Shown here in pieces: positions 12,447 to 39,449 of a stretch of 64,000 bases of DNA. The position numbers and the translations under genes are program-made. Origin of the DNA: Candidatus Tectimicrobiota bacterium (GTDB lineage: Bacteria; JACPUC01); contig JACPUC010000021.1 of the NCBI GenBank assembly GCA_016192455.1, positions 35,630 to 99,629 of the forward strand, written 5' to 3'. Below the pieces are notes generated by a model. It worked only from the letters and a program-made list of their open reading frames with translations. It was not told the origin of the DNA and did no database searches. Numbering within the stretch: position 1 is the stretch's first letter; each line of letters starts with the position of its first letter.

Positions 12447-14551
12447 CCCAGGGTGTATGCCGCACCCCACAGGCGGGCGCCGCCGAGTCGCTTCCGCCCT
12501 GGGCGCCGGCGCGGCAAGCCCGGCCGCGCGGCGGGGCGATCACCGCCATTGGCTTCCTGCTCCTCGCGCTGCTGGTCGGCGGGTCACTCCGGCCGGGGTC
12601 AGGGCGGGCCCAGGAGGCTGCTCCCGACCATGCCGGGCAGTCCAGCCCGGCGCTGCAGAGCGGCGTCTCGGGGGGCGGCGCCCCTACCGGCACGGCCGTT
12701 GCGGCCCCGCCCGCGCGCGCCTCACGCTTCAGCCCCGAGAGGCTCTTCGAGGACGTGGCGACGCTCGCCGATGACCGCATGGAGGGCCGCGGCATCGGCA
12801 CCGCCGGCCTCGAGCGGGCGGCTGCCTACATCGCGGCGCAGTTCGCCGCCGCGGGGCTGACGCCGGCCGGCGACAACGGCGCCTACTTCCAGAGCTTCCG
12901 CGTTCCCACCGGCGTGCGCCTGCTGGCGGGGAACCACCTCCGCGTCAACGGCAGGGAGCTGCGCCTCGAGGACGATTTCGTGCCGCTCAACTTTGCCGCA
13001 AATGGCGCCGCCGGCGGCGGCCTCGTCTTCGCCGGCTTCGGCATCACGGCGCCGGAGATCGGCTATGACGATTACGCCGGGATCGACGTGGCGGGCAAGA
13101 TCGTCATGGTGCTCCGCCGCGAGCCGCGCGAACGCGATCAGCAGAGCCCGTTCCGCGATCCGCGCGCCTATCGCTACTCCGAGGTGCGCTACAAGCTCCA
13201 CAACGCGCGGCAGCACGGCGCCGCCGGCGTCCTGGTCGTGGACCTCCCCGATCCGCCAGCTCCGGCGAAGCCGTCCGCCGCGCCGCGCGCCACAGCGGGG
13301 AAGCCTCCGCAGCCTGGCGACGGCGCAGCGCGCCGGCCGCTCCGCTTCGACGAGCGCACCGGCGGGGCTTCCGCCGGCATCCTCGCGGTCTACCTGCACC
13401 ACGAGGTTGCGACGCGGCTGCTGCGCGATGCCGGCGCTTCCCTCGAGGAGCGCAAGGCTTCGATTGACGCCACGTTGCAGCCCGCCTCGCTGGAGGCGCC
13501 CGGGGTGAGCGTCGAGCTCGTTGTGGCGCTGGAGAAGGTCTTCGGCAGTGTCCGCAACGTCGTCGGCTGGCTCCCCGGGCAGGATGCGACGCCGCGCCGG
13601 GAGGTCGTCGTCATCGGCGCCCACTACGATCACCTTGGCTACGGGGATGGGAACTCCCTGGCCGCGAGCCCGGGGCGCGCAGTCCACAACGGCGCCGATG
13701 ACAACGCCTCCGGGGTGGCCGGGGTGCTGGCGCTGGCGCGGTCCTTCGCCGCCCGACGCGGCACGGAGGCCGGCGCCCCACGCAGCCTGCTCTTCGCCGC
13801 CTTCGCCGCGGAGGAGCTCGGGGTGCTCGGCTCCACCTACTTCGTGAAGCATCCGCCCGGCCCGCTGGCGCCGCCGCAGGGCATCGGCGACGTGGCCGCC
13901 ATGCTCAACCTCGACATGATCGGGCGCCTGCGGCAGCGCACCCTGCACGTGCAGGGGGTGGACTCGGCGGCAGGCTTCCGCAGCCTCGCGCAGGAGATCG
14001 CCGCGCCGCTTGGCCTGCAGCTCAAGTTCCTCGGCGAGGGGTACGGGCCGTCAGACCACACACCCTTCTATGCCGCGAAGGTTCCCGTGCTCTTCTTCTT
14101 CACGGGGCCGCACAGCGACTACCACAAGCCGAGTGACGACGCGACCAAGATCAATGCCGCCGGCATGGCCGAGGTGGTGGAGCTGGTGGCACGCGTCGCC
14201 GAGCGCCTCGCCGCCTCGCCGCGACCGCAGTACGTCGCGGCGAAGACACCGCCGGCACGGCGCGCGGCGGGTTCCGGCGGAGGTTACGGGCCGCGCTTCG
14301 GCATCGTGCCGGATTTCTCCGAGTTCGAGGGCGGCGTGCTCATCAGCGGCGTCGGGCCGGGGACTCCGGCGGACAGCATTGGGCTGCGCACCGGCGACGT
14401 CATCACGCGGTTCGCCGGCGTCCCGGTGTACAACCTCTATGACTTCACGTACGTGCTGCGCTCGAAACGGGCTGGCGATGAGGTCGAGGTAACATTCCGG
14501 AGAGACGGCGGCACCTTCACCAAGCGGGTGACCTTGGAGCGCCGGCGCTAG
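12431..14551 (+). CDS. M28-family zinc aminopeptidase with PA and PDZ domains, exported
   Basis: 706 residues from a GTG at 12431 with AGGAG eight bases upstream, overlapping the propeller gene by 16 bases. An export signal or anchor is at about residues 38-60. A protease-associated insert follows (ITAPEIGYDDYAG ... GKIVMVLRREP). The M28 zinc site is complete: VVIGAHYDHLG, HNGADDNASG, AAEELGVLGS, NLDMIGRL and SDHTPFY. The last ~85 residues are a PDZ domain (GVGPGTPADSIGLRTGD). It should remove N-terminal residues from peptides outside the cytoplasm. The coupling to a propeller protein suggests a protease-scaffold pair. Confidence 0.92.
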   Translation: MHQPVTQGVCRTPQAGAAESLPPWAPARQARPRGGAITAIGFLLLALLVGGSLRPGSGRAQEAAPDHAGQSSPALQSGVSGGGAPTGTAVAAPPARASRFSPERLFEDVATLADDRMEGRGIGTAGLERAAAYIAAQFAAAGLTPAGDNGAYFQSFRVPTGVRLLAGNHLRVNGRELRLEDDFVPLNFAANGAAGGGLVFAGFGITAPEIGYDDYAGIDVAGKIVMVLRREPRERDQQSPFRDPRAYRYSEVRYKLHNARQHGAAGVLVVDLPDPPAPAKPSAAPRATAGKPPQPGDGAARRPLRFDERTGGASAGILAVYLHHEVATRLLRDAGASLEERKASIDATLQPASLEAPGVSVELVVALEKVFGSVRNVVGWLPGQDATPRREVVVIGAHYDHLGYGDGNSLAASPGRAVHNGADDNASGVAGVLALARSFAARRGTEAGAPRSLLFAAFAAEELGVLGSTYFVKHPPGPLAPPQGIGDVAAMLNLDMIGRLRQRTLHVQGVDSAAGFRSLAQEIAAPLGLQLKFLGEGYGPSDHTPFYAAKVPVLFFFTGPHSDYHKPSDDATKINAAGMAEVVELVARVAERLAASPRPQYVAAKTPPARRAAGSGGGYGPRFGIVPDFSEFEGGVLISGVGPGTPADSIGLRTGDVITRFAGVPVYNLYDFTYVLRSKRAGDEVEVTFRRDGGTFTKRVTLERRR

Positions 14552-34930: not shown

Positions 34931-35716
34931 TTACTTGAGGATAAGTGAGGAGAAGTGGCCGAAGAGGAGGCCGGCGCTGCCGGCAAGGATGCCGATGATC
35001 ATGATCTCCAGACCATTGCGCACCCAGTTGAGCTTCGTCACCTTGCTGCGGCCGGCTCCAATGAAGAAGAGCGCCACGAGGGAGACAATCCCGGCAACCT
35101 TTGCGGCAAGGGGCGCGCGATGGGTAAAGGCGAACGGCAAGAGCGGCGGCAACGCCCCGATGAGGAAGGAGATCCCCATCGTCGCGCCGACCTTCAAGGG
35201 GTTATCGAATGTCTCCGGCACGATCCCCAGCTCTTCCTTGGCCATGAACTCGAGCCAGTGCTGCTTGTCCGAGGTGACGCGCTTCACGAGAATGTCGGCC
35301 TCGCTCTTCGTAAAGCCCTTCTCGGCGAAGATCTCCTGCATCTCCGCGATCTCTTTTTCCGGCACCTCCTCGATTTCCCGCGCCTCGCGCCGCAGCTCGC
35401 GGTCGAAGTACTCGCTCTGCGACTTCGTGGAGATGTAGGCCCCGAAGAACATGGAGATCGCCCCGGCGAACATCGCCATGATGCCCGCCAAGAGCACCAG
35501 ATTGCTCTCCTTGATGGACGCAGCCAGCCCCATGACAAAGCCGATGGTCGTGATGAGGCCGTCGTTCATGCCGAAGACCACCTCGCGGATGGCCCGGCCT
35601 TTGGGGGTATGCCACTCCTCGCCGTGAAAGCGCTTGGAGAAGTGTCCGACGCGCGCCCGATACTCCTTCAAGATATCTTCCGGCATTGCCGGAGTGGAAC
35701 TTGCATCGCTCTCCAT
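34931..35716 (-). CDS. VIT1/CCC1-family iron/manganese transporter
   Basis: 261 residues. Five membrane segments are seen with the family opening AIREVVFGMNDGLITTIGFV, then MFAGAISMFFGAYIS, a central hydrophilic arm (about residues 95-165) rich in Glu that would bind metal, and two closing segments. Such proteins move ferrous iron or manganese out of the cytoplasm by proton antiport. The ATG at 35716 has no ribosome site; a structured CRISPR-like repeat ends six bases upstream of it. ATG at 35686 is the next option, also without a clear site. Translation may therefore depend on that upstream sequence. Confidence 0.92.
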   Translation of the reverse strand: MESDASSTPAMPEDILKEYRARVGHFSKRFHGEEWHTPKGRAIREVVFGMNDGLITTIGFVMGLAASIKESNLVLLAGIMAMFAGAISMFFGAYISTKSQSEYFDRELRREAREIEEVPEKEIAEMQEIFAEKGFTKSEADILVKRVTSDKQHWLEFMAKEELGIVPETFDNPLKVGATMGISFLIGALPPLLPFAFTHRAPLAAKVAGIVSLVALFFIGAGRSKVTKLNWVRNGLEIMIIGILAGSAGLLFGHFSSLILK

Positions 35717-35722
35717 CGTTTC

Positions 35723-35754
35723 GTTTCAATCCACGCCTCCGCGCGGGAGGCGAC
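35723..35754 (-). CRISPR. Solitary type I-C-like CRISPR repeat
   Basis: A 32-base unit read on the minus strand begins GTCGC and ends TGGATTGAAAC. CGCCTCC and GGAGGCG form a perfect 7-bp stem with a 5-base CGCGC loop, leaving an 11-base 3' handle. Both the layout and the handle match type I-C repeats such as those of Desulfovibrio and Pseudomonas. No second copy follows at spacer distance on either side and there are no cas genes in the window. The repeat lies six bases upstream of the VIT transporter ATG, in the same orientation. Confidence 0.75.
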
Positions 35755-35860: not shown

Positions 35861-36691
35861 CTACGCGAGGCTCGCCAGGCTGGCGCTCTCGAGGTCCGGC
35901 TCCCGGCCGTTGAGGAGGGGGATGAGCAGACGCCGGATGTTGGTGGCGCGGCCCGTGCTCAACTCCACCGTCACGACCACGCCCGCCAGGACCGCGTCTT
36001 TCTTCGCCGCTTCGAAGCGCTTCGGCATCTGCGAGAGGAACTTCTCGATGACGATCTCTTTCTGAATGCCGATGACCGAGTCGTAGGGTCCCGTCATGCC
36101 GACATCCGTGATGTAGGCGGTGCCCCGGGGGAGGATGCGCTCATCCGCGGTCTGCACGTGGGTGTGGCTCCCCACCACGGCGCTGACGCGGCCATCCAGG
36201 TACCAGCCCATGGCGATCTTCTCGGAGGTCGCCTCGGCGTGCATGTCGACGAAGATGACCTCGCATTGCGGCCGCAAGCGCTCGATCTCTTCATCCGCTT
36301 TGCGGAACGGACAATCGACGGTCGACATGAACACCCGCCCCATCAGGTTCAGCACGCCGATACGCGTTCCATCAGGGGCCACCACGACGTGGCTGCCCCT
36401 CCCAGGCACGTCCTCGGGATAGTTCGCCGGGCGCAGGAGGCGCGTCTCATGGCTGATGCACTCGAAGACCTCCTTCTTGTCCCAGACGTGGTTCCCGGAA
36501 GTGAGGACATTGATGCCGCTCTTCAGCAGCTCGTCGATGATCGCCGGCGTTACGCCTGCGCCGCCCGCGGCGTTCTCACAGTTGGCAATGCAGACATCCG
36601 CGCCGTAGTGCTGCACAATCTCGCCGAGGAGACGCTGCACCACCATGCGCCCGGGCTTGCCAAAAATGTCGCCGATGTAGACGAGTTTCAC
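35861..36691 (-). CDS. ymdB: YmdB-family metallophosphoesterase
   Basis: 276 residues. Metal-site motifs are in order: YIGDIFGKPGR, CENAAGGAG, TSGNHVWD, VDMHAEATSEK and VGSHTHVQTAD. The family hydrolyses 2',3'-cyclic nucleotides and in Bacillus controls biofilm and sporulation decisions. It follows rny on the same strand, the linkage known from Firmicutes and many Deltaproteobacteria, tying it to RNA turnover. Normal length; ATG start at 36691. Confidence 0.94.
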   Translation of the reverse strand: MKLVYIGDIFGKPGRMVVQRLLGEIVQHYGADVCIANCENAAGGAGVTPAIIDELLKSGINVLTSGNHVWDKKEVFECISHETRLLRPANYPEDVPGRGSHVVVAPDGTRIGVLNLMGRVFMSTVDCPFRKADEEIERLRPQCEVIFVDMHAEATSEKIAMGWYLDGRVSAVVGSHTHVQTADERILPRGTAYITDVGMTGPYDSVIGIQKEIVIEKFLSQMPKRFEAAKKDAVLAGVVVTVELSTGRATNIRRLLIPLLNGREPDLESASLASLA

Positions 36692-37027: not shown

Positions 37028-38590
37028 CTAGCGCGCATACTCCACCGAACGCATCTCGCGAATTACCGTCACCTTGATCTCGCCCGGGTAGGCTACTTCC
37101 TCCTCAATCCGTTTGGCGATGTCCCGAGCCAGCAACTGCGCCTCCGCGTCGCTGATCTCGCTCGGTTCCACGATGACGCGAATCTCGCGCCCGGCTTGGA
37201 TCGCGTAGGCCTTCTGGACTCCGGCAAAGGAGTCGCAGATGTTCTCGAGCTGCTCGAGGCGCTTGATGTAGTTCTCCAGCATCTCGCGGCGGGCGCCGGG
37301 ACGGGCCGCCGAGATGGCATCGGCCGCCTGCACGATGATGGCTTCCAGCGATTGCGCCTCGGCATCCTCGTGGTGGGCCTCAATGGCGTTGAGGACCTGC
37401 TTCGATTCGTTGCCGCGCTTCAGAATCTCGACGCTGATCTGCGTGTGGGTCCCATCGTGCTGGTGGGTGACCGCCTTGCCGATGTCGTGCAGCAGCCCGG
37501 CGCGCTTCGCCACCTTCACATCACATCCCAGCTCCGCCGCGATCACCCCGGCGATGTAGGCCACCTCCTTGGAGTGCTGCAGCATGTTCTGGGAGTAGCT
37601 GGTGCGATACCTCAGGCGGCCCAGCAGGCGCAGGACCTCCTGGTGCAGGTTATCGACGCCGGCTTCGAAGGCCGCTTTCTCCCCCTCCTCGCGCAGGGAG
37701 GTCGACATCTCCTTGGTGACGCGCGCCACCATCTCTTCGATGCGCGCCGGATGGATGCGCCCGTCCGCGATGAGCCGTTCGAGCGCCAAGCGGGCGATCT
37801 CCCGCTTCACTGGATCGAAGCCGCTCAAGATCACCGCTTCCGGGGTGTCATCGACGATGAGGTCGATGCCGGTGGCCATTTGCAGGGCGCGGATGTTCCG
37901 CCCCTCGCGGCCGATGATGCGGCCCTTCATCTCCTCGTTCGGCAGACCCACCACGGAGACGGTGGTCTCGGCGACATATTCGGAGGCGCAGCTTTGGATC
38001 GCATAGCCGAGAATTTCCCGCGCTTTGCGATCCGCGGTCTCGCGCGTCTGGCGCTCCAGCCGCCGCAGCTTCTCGGCGCACTCCAGGCGAGCCTCGCGCA
38101 GCATCTCGTCCATGAGGGACTGACGCGCCTCGCTGGCGGTCATGCCGGCGATGAGCTCCAGCTTCACCTTGGCCTCGTGAAGCTGCTGGTCCACCCGCGT
38201 GCGATCGCCGGCCAAGCTCTCCTCCAGCCCCTGAAGCTGCCGCTGCTGCTTGGCGAGGGTCTTCTCCTGGCCCTCGCAGAGGGTGACCCGCTGGTTCAGG
38301 GTCTGCTCGCGTTCGTCGAGGCGTTGCGACATGCGCTTCAGCTCGAGCTGCCGCTCGCGCGTCTCCTCCTCGAAGGCCAGGCGCGTCTGCAGGAGCTTCT
38401 CCTTGGCCTCCAGCTCAGCATCGTGCCGTCGTCTCTTCACCTCTTCGTCGGTCTGTTGCCGCAGCCGCTCCGCCTCTCGGTCCAGCTCGGCGCGTCGCTT
38501 GCGGATGAGGGAGCGCCCCACACCCAGGCCAATGACGAGGCCGATGCCAAGGGCTACCACCGCCAACAGGATCATGAATGTGAGTTGCAT
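37028..38590 (-). CDS. rny: Ribonuclease Y
   Basis: 520 residues from the ATG at 38590, which has GGGAGG eleven bases before it; a GTG at 38602 would add four residues but abuts that site. Layout: N-terminal membrane helix (about 5-27), long coiled coil (30-190), KH domain with [15 protein letters not shown], then HD domain with [10 protein letters not shown] and LLHDIGKA. It is the membrane-bound endoribonuclease that starts mRNA decay in bacteria without RNase E or alongside it. GGAG and CTCC between the site and the ATG could form a small stem over the ribosome site. Confidence 0.97.
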
Positions 38591-39449
38591 AGGAGTGAAC
38601 ACCTCCCGGCGTCATCCACCGGCATTTACGCGGCGCAGGGTTCCAAGGCCATGGCGCGCCGGCGCGGCCTGAAGAGAAAGGGCGCCATGGGGGATGCTGC
38701 CGCCGCGCCGCCGCCGGCGCTCTGCCTCCCAAGAATGCTCCGAGAACGACGAAGATGTGGAGGGAGTGAGCGTCGTCCAGCGGTTCTCACCTGGGCAAAC
38801 ATCTAGCCCCCTTCGTGCATCGTGTGTCAGAAGACGAGCGAGCAAGGAGACGAAAGCATCAACCGGAGAGAGCCTGGCGGGAATGGCGAGGCACACCTGA
38901 CGGTCCCGAGTACGTGGGCCGTGCGAGGCGGCAAGGAGAGGCGCTCACTGAATCAGAGGCGGTCAGGGCAACGCGGGCCACGGGGGTGTGGGATGGTCAG
39001 GTGGCGCCGGCGCAGAGTTCCAGGATCGCTGCCAGAGATGGACTTCCACGCACCAGCATGCCCCACGCTCAGCACGAATCCCTGACCTGTAAAGGAACGA
39101 CGAGTACCCTACATCCTCAACCACGCATCACCTTTTTTGATGTTGAACTCATGTTGAGGCAACCACCCACACGTGAGCTTCGGTCCCCACCACGTGGGGG
39201 TCCCGCCGAGCCCGCGCCCCCTCTGAACAGGAGCCAATTTCTCCCTACTCTCACTCGTCCCTCGTTCAATCGGGAAGATGTTGCCGCCCGCACCTGTCAC
39301 GGGGCGCACCCGCCTTGCAAGATCGGCGATAGTCCTTGGGTGCAACGCCCCGCGAGGCCAAACGACGCCTCCGCTCTCCTGCCCGGTTTTCTCCTTTCTG
39401 CCTTGTACCATGCGTGGGACCGAGGAATCCTCCCCGTCGCGTGTCCACG
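38591..39449 (-). other. Structured intergenic region between zapA and rny
   Basis: About 860 bases with no accepted gene. On the plus strand numbering GGGGC-GCACCC (39301-39311) pairs with GGGTGC-(aac)-GCCCC (39338-39351), and CCCCAC (39185-39190) pairs with GTGGGG (39194-39199). In many Proteobacteria the 6S RNA gene lies downstream of zapA, so this is a place to look for ssrS, but I could not find the conserved 6S central-bubble sequences, and I do not call it. Confidence 0.3.

Follow-up and report, generated by a model that had tools for sequence, protein, structure and literature searches.

Introduction

A type I-C CRISPR repeat that stands alone has been described as RacrIC1, a solitary repeat that inhibits I-C immunity and is an RNA anti-CRISPR (PMC10651486). 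The survey of solitary repeat units (SRUs) published with it covered mobile elements only, and 83% of the prophage SRUs agreed with the CRISPR subtype of their host (PMC10651486). In type I-C, Cas5d cuts the repeat, leaving an 11-nt 5' handle (PMC5965380). In most E. coli lineages, the I-F cas genes were lost and a small orphan array was kept (PMC8616872).

Here, a solitary repeat was analyzed in a stretch of 64,000 nucleotides from a Candidatus Tectimicrobiota bacterium (the window), located on contig C18 of a draft assembly of 4.46 Mb that comprises 31 contigs and is 88% complete. An earlier note on this DNA had offered a leftover array end, a recruited 5' UTR hairpin or an rRNA-independent translation element as explanations; the closest match to the repeat, the viral solitary repeat units (Racrs), is absent from these options. 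Like RacrIC1 and the viral SRUs, the window repeat is a stand-alone, intergenic I-C repeat with hairpin and handle intact and a same-strand gene adjoining, and neither cas genes nor an array lie beside it; it differs from them in that it is chromosomal among housekeeping genes, that it has two copies and that no I-C system was found in the genome. RacrIC1 itself is encoded in a prophage, where an acr gene precedes it, and the likeness of the window repeat to it is one of sequence and setting. With orphan or relic arrays such as that of the E. coli I-F system (PMC8616872) the locus shares the absence of the cas genes of the repeat's own system, whereas the host copies have no spacer, second repeat or leader and occupy two unrelated sites. 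The 32-nt repeat is identical to that of type I-C arrays, but the host copies are without array, spacers, leader or cas genes. The CreTA minimal CRISPRs (PMC8501985) likewise contain a CRISPR-derived element outside an array; however, creA consists of two degenerate repeats and a guide, whereas the window has a single perfect repeat, next to which a toxin RNA was not seen. The explanation that we prefer, and to which we would give about an even chance, is that the 5' leader of a chromosomal gene in the window holds a solitary I-C repeat unit like those carried by viruses, which would have arrived recently and be dormant here.

A Solitary Repeat Ahead of the VIT Gene

The 32-base unit with its 7-bp stem and 11-base handle, six bases from the VIT ATG, was confirmed (Table 1), the six bases between the 3' end of the repeat and the ATG (35714-35716) on the same strand being GAAACG. 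A second copy of the 32-mer was found nowhere else in the window, in line with its description as lone there, and 100 shuffles gave 0 chance matches within 3 mismatches. The 7-bp stem was predicted by RNAfold at -13.0 kcal/mol for the 32-mer, a value equalled by 12 of 200 shuffles, and the predicted fold of a longer leader holding the repeat was not better than those of shuffles. An Rfam scan of the window returned one tRNA and nothing else.

Table 1. Features at the repeat locus, in window coordinates.
Feature	Position	Strand	Remarks
VIT-family transporter gene, 261 aa	34931..35716	-	PF01988
GAAAC tandem copy of the repeat's final five bases	35718..35722	-	mark shared by many viral solitary I-C repeats
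Solitary type I-C CRISPR repeat	35723..35754	-	exact 32-mer GTCGCCTCCCGCGCGGAGGCGTGGATTGAAAC; 7-bp stem, then 11-nt handle TGGATTGAAAC
YmdB-like phosphoesterase gene, upstream neighbor	35861..36691	-	106 bases from repeat
RNase Y gene, farther upstream, housekeeping setting	37028..38602	-	

The VIT product matched the VIT1 family PF01988 with 215.9 bits. No Shine-Dalgarno-like motif was detected ahead of its ATG, in agreement with the earlier note, which had seen no ordinary ribosome site, and no promoter-like site was found upstream of the window repeat. The VIT open reading frame can neither extend nor start above the repeat, because the handle holds a TGA in the VIT frame. Among the compared genomes none belonged to the same phylum, and the VIT relatives in them were distant, at the level of about 31% identity; by this measure the host represents an isolated lineage.

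As regards the sequence rule for SRUs (PMC10651486), the window repeat is a full match to a known repeat, is intergenic and has 100 bp free of full or partial repeats. Two or more spacer-separated repeats, as a functional array would contain, are absent at both host sites. A virus or plasmid as carrier, by which SRUs are also defined, was not found either: the neighbors are the RNase Y, YmdB and VIT genes, and phage and plasmid records gave no match.

Type I-C Arrays Elsewhere and the CRISPR Machinery of the Host

The exact 32-mer was sought in about 85,000 species genomes and turned up in 15 stretches, mostly arrays, and such arrays belong to Desulfovibrionaceae (Desulfovibrio), Synergistaceae, Ca. 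Desulfatibia, an Actinomycetota MAG and Ca. Desantisbacteria. The array of one member of the Desulfovibrionaceae (L023) is preceded by genes for Cas3, Cas5c, Cas8c/Csd1 and Cas7/Csd2 and that of Ca. Desulfatibia (L025) by genes for Cas8c/Csd1, Cas7/Csd2 and Cas1c. The window 32-mer, previously called type I-C-like, is a genuine type I-C repeat.

In the host genome, an identical second copy, again solitary and intergenic, is located at C22:12825-12856, 143 bases upstream of ubiD and on the same strand, and no further copies within 3 mismatches were found beyond those on C18 and C22. The surroundings of the C22 copy are chromosomal, with ATP synthase, bactofilin, ferredoxin and UbiD genes. Downstream of this repeat, at about 12941-12954, a 14-nt anti-repeat, TCCACGCCTCCGCG, begins 116 bases from the repeat's first base; folding predicts that the two pair with each other, at the expense of the hairpin within the repeat. 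A third match to TGGATTGAAAC, on C23, has no hairpin and was taken as chance.

No model match to Cas5, Cas7 or Cas8c was obtained in the assembled 88% of the host genome and no full-score Cas3 was present there, the sole Cas3-core match being far under the cut-off. The whole-genome check for the repeat and the I-C cas genes that the earlier note had proposed thereby yielded one identical extra copy and, in the assembled part, none of these genes at full score. Cas genes of the same subtype, by which a functional array is recognized, and a Cas5d in the same cell, on which cutting of a 5' UTR at the repeat depends, were both missing from the 88%-complete assembly, and the idea of cutting by a host Cas5d is left unsupported. 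The sole array found in the host genome belongs to a CRISPR locus on C9 (L033, 10227-15349) with Cas1, Cas6 and seven repeats, at which no effector genes were recognized. Its repeat of 37 nt, GTTGCAGAAGATGCCCCGCTTTAGAGGGGATTGAAAC, is unlike the window repeat and was found nowhere else in the host genome; a full array with a different repeat had been named beforehand as an outcome that would speak against the earlier reading. The same locus encodes a SWIM/DUF6880 protein (PADLOC PDC-S62), the gene of which overlaps the Cas6 open reading frame.

These findings bear on the proposal that VIT (and ubiD) gained the repeat as a regulatory hairpin in the 5' UTR, a target for a nuclease of the Cas5d type or for some other RNA-binding protein. 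Its position on the same strand, six bases from the VIT ATG, the second copy likewise upstream of a same-strand gene and the perfect conservation of both copies would fit such a role, whereas no Cas5 was found in the assembled genome, 143 bases separate the UbiD copy from its gene start, and the anti-repeat would melt the hairpin of that copy; we consider recruitment unlikely.

Furthermore, the assembly itself might have created the solitary repeats, either by collapsing a real array or by joining two sequences at a shared repeat. The genome is a draft in 31 contigs and 88% complete, the 32-mer is common to many organisms, and the C22 sequence left of the repeat differs in composition. Against this, there are two occurrences, each with a plausible gene order on either side, and tetranucleotide use agrees on both sides of the C18 copy; moreover, where many spacers branch off one graph node, a broken contig would be expected rather than a bridged one. 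Taken together, an artefact appears very improbable.

Search for Array Traces at the Two Host Copies

The left flanks of the C18 and C22 copies are unrelated, the longest common word being 9 as compared to a mean of 8.5 for shuffled sequences, and the 100 bases preceding the copies have a GC content of 74% and 66%, unlike an AT-rich leader. Because the two left flanks are unrelated and GC-rich, the copies have no common leader, and a shared leader was rejected for want of similarity between them. Neither a leader nor a spacer nor a degenerate second repeat was found near either host copy. A mini-array at the UbiD copy, composed of a 33-nt 'spacer' and a decayed second repeat, was rejected as well, since the candidate scored no higher than background. 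A target-site duplication was not observed at the window and C22 copies and was seen at 1 of 76 solitary repeats.

The main rival to the preferred explanation is that two I-C arrays recombined to single repeats after loss of the cas genes. Recombination between direct repeats can leave a single copy, and in this manner each host copy could have become single. Both copies are exact array repeats, several of the sampled genomes with few copies contain mini-arrays or array ends, and the loss of I-F cas genes with retention of a small orphan array in E. coli (PMC8616872) offers a precedent. However, the unrelated, GC-rich flanks without common leader and the lack of a degenerate repeat nearby argue against array remnants, as does the rarity of tail duplication at array junctions (6/526, see below); moreover, it would take two relics that are simultaneously perfect and single. 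We regard this origin as somewhat unlikely, and the leftover array end of the earlier note survives to that extent, with leader, spacer and degenerate second repeat missing at both sites.

Solitary Type I-C Repeats of Viruses and Tail Duplication

The exact 32-mer was also found alone in a viral contig (L031, 14513-14544, minus strand). There it is in frame within a viral open reading frame, just ahead of a DUF1643 domain, i.e., a solitary repeat inside a gene; for an insertion test, a repeat-free relative of this site was sought and none was found. A set of about 67 distinct solitary I-C repeats was collected from IMG/VR with degenerate I-C patterns that prescribe part of the stem, solitary meaning that no second GGATTGAAA occurred within 250 bases on the contig examined. 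Of these, 38 are in gaps between open reading frames, 23 of the 38 being co-oriented with both flanking genes and seven directed against both, with the reservation that the viral open reading frame calls are crude and that IMG/VR sequences may contain host pieces. A start led by a Shine-Dalgarno motif lies at most 45 nt 3' of the repeat in 14/68 cases, random points giving 6.1% (p = 5e-5). On the reverse strand the count was 7, and direction alone was not significant in this test. The frequent position of viral solitary repeats ahead of gene starts is a further point in favor of the recruited hairpin discussed above. Two or three identical solitary I-C copies per viral contig, in different gene gaps, were observed in one contig comprising L084 and L086 and in another comprising L096 and L140, and the host genome resembles these contigs in having identical solitary copies at different sites.

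The 3' tail of the window repeat is doubled at once (GAAAC-GAAAC), whereas the UbiD copy on C22 is without tail duplication. A tail duplication of at least 4 nt was present in 11/76 solitary I-C repeats, the window repeat included, as compared to 6/526 array repeat-spacer junctions (p = 4e-7). AAAC follows the repeat directly in eight cases among the 76 solitary repeats, later offsets averaging 0.57. In an independent test, the viral stretches in which the handle GCGTGGATTGAAAC is followed by AAAC numbered 41, including some from the earlier solitary set, whereas the permuted controls with ACAA and CAAA gave one and three, respectively; the scan with handle and AAAC alone imposes no part of the stem, and most of the 41 stretches are solitary and have kept a hairpin, the sequence of which varies from case to case. 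The tail copies that often come directly after viral solitary I-C repeats are AAAC, GAAAC and ATTGAAAC (IMG/VR loci L079-L097, L175 and L235-L266), and in the chromosomal L179 six AAAC units are followed by a Shine-Dalgarno sequence and ATG. In a word search, the main text of the Racr paper (PMC10651486) showed no mention of tail duplication. With its doubled tail, the window copy bears a closer resemblance to viral solitary units than to a piece of an array. Tail duplication may help to separate viral solitary units from array relics, and its presence across viral I-C units provides a testable signature of their origin or working.

Solitary I-C repeats with doubled tail might also be functional leader elements ahead of genes, in viruses and in this bacterium: Cas5d would cut the mRNA at the repeat, a crRNA-like 5' handle would stay on the downstream message, and the level of the message would thus be tied to the presence of type I-C. 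We deem this quite improbable.

Proposed Origin of the Repeat

The preferred explanation, a virus-like solitary repeat unit, is favored by the exact match to an I-C array repeat, its solitary state, the identical and likewise solitary second copy, the finding of neither I-C machinery nor an I-C array in the assembled genome and the tail duplication, which many viral solitary I-C repeats share and arrays rarely show. Since both host copies are still perfect, we infer that they arrived recently, and mobile DNA would have carried them. A read-through transcript from the YmdB side would contain the hairpin, which Cas5d would bind and cut just before the 11-nt handle, and in a cell possessing type I-C the element might serve as a decoy. 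As no Cas5d or other I-C proteins were found in the host genome, the element is probably dormant in this host, and the window repeat is probably a stray copy, not a working part of the VIT gene. Several points stand against a unit of the viral kind: both host copies lie amid housekeeping genes with no recognizable prophage; in an I-C-free genome a decoy is without target, whereas 83% of prophage SRUs agree with the subtype of their host (PMC10651486); and the missing promoter-like site, the longer leader that folds no better than shuffles and the UbiD copy without tail duplication count against it as well. The presence of a perfect pair in housekeeping DNA of a genome that yielded no I-C system suggests that units of this type are able to enter chromosomes and occupy gene leaders.

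In a set of 386 genomes, comprising the host and distant ones, the 32-type pattern was detected in 22 genomes besides the host, mostly in arrays or at their ends, with few copies that are truly solitary. One solitary 32-mer (L184, genome G183) has an array of the same repeat at a distance of about 1.2 kb and is flanked by two near-copies of a short hairpin sequence, CGAGCCTGAAGGCTCTACTCC. In another genome (L193, G064), an I-E-like repeat lies about 29 bases ahead of a solitary I-C repeat, as if array types had been joined.
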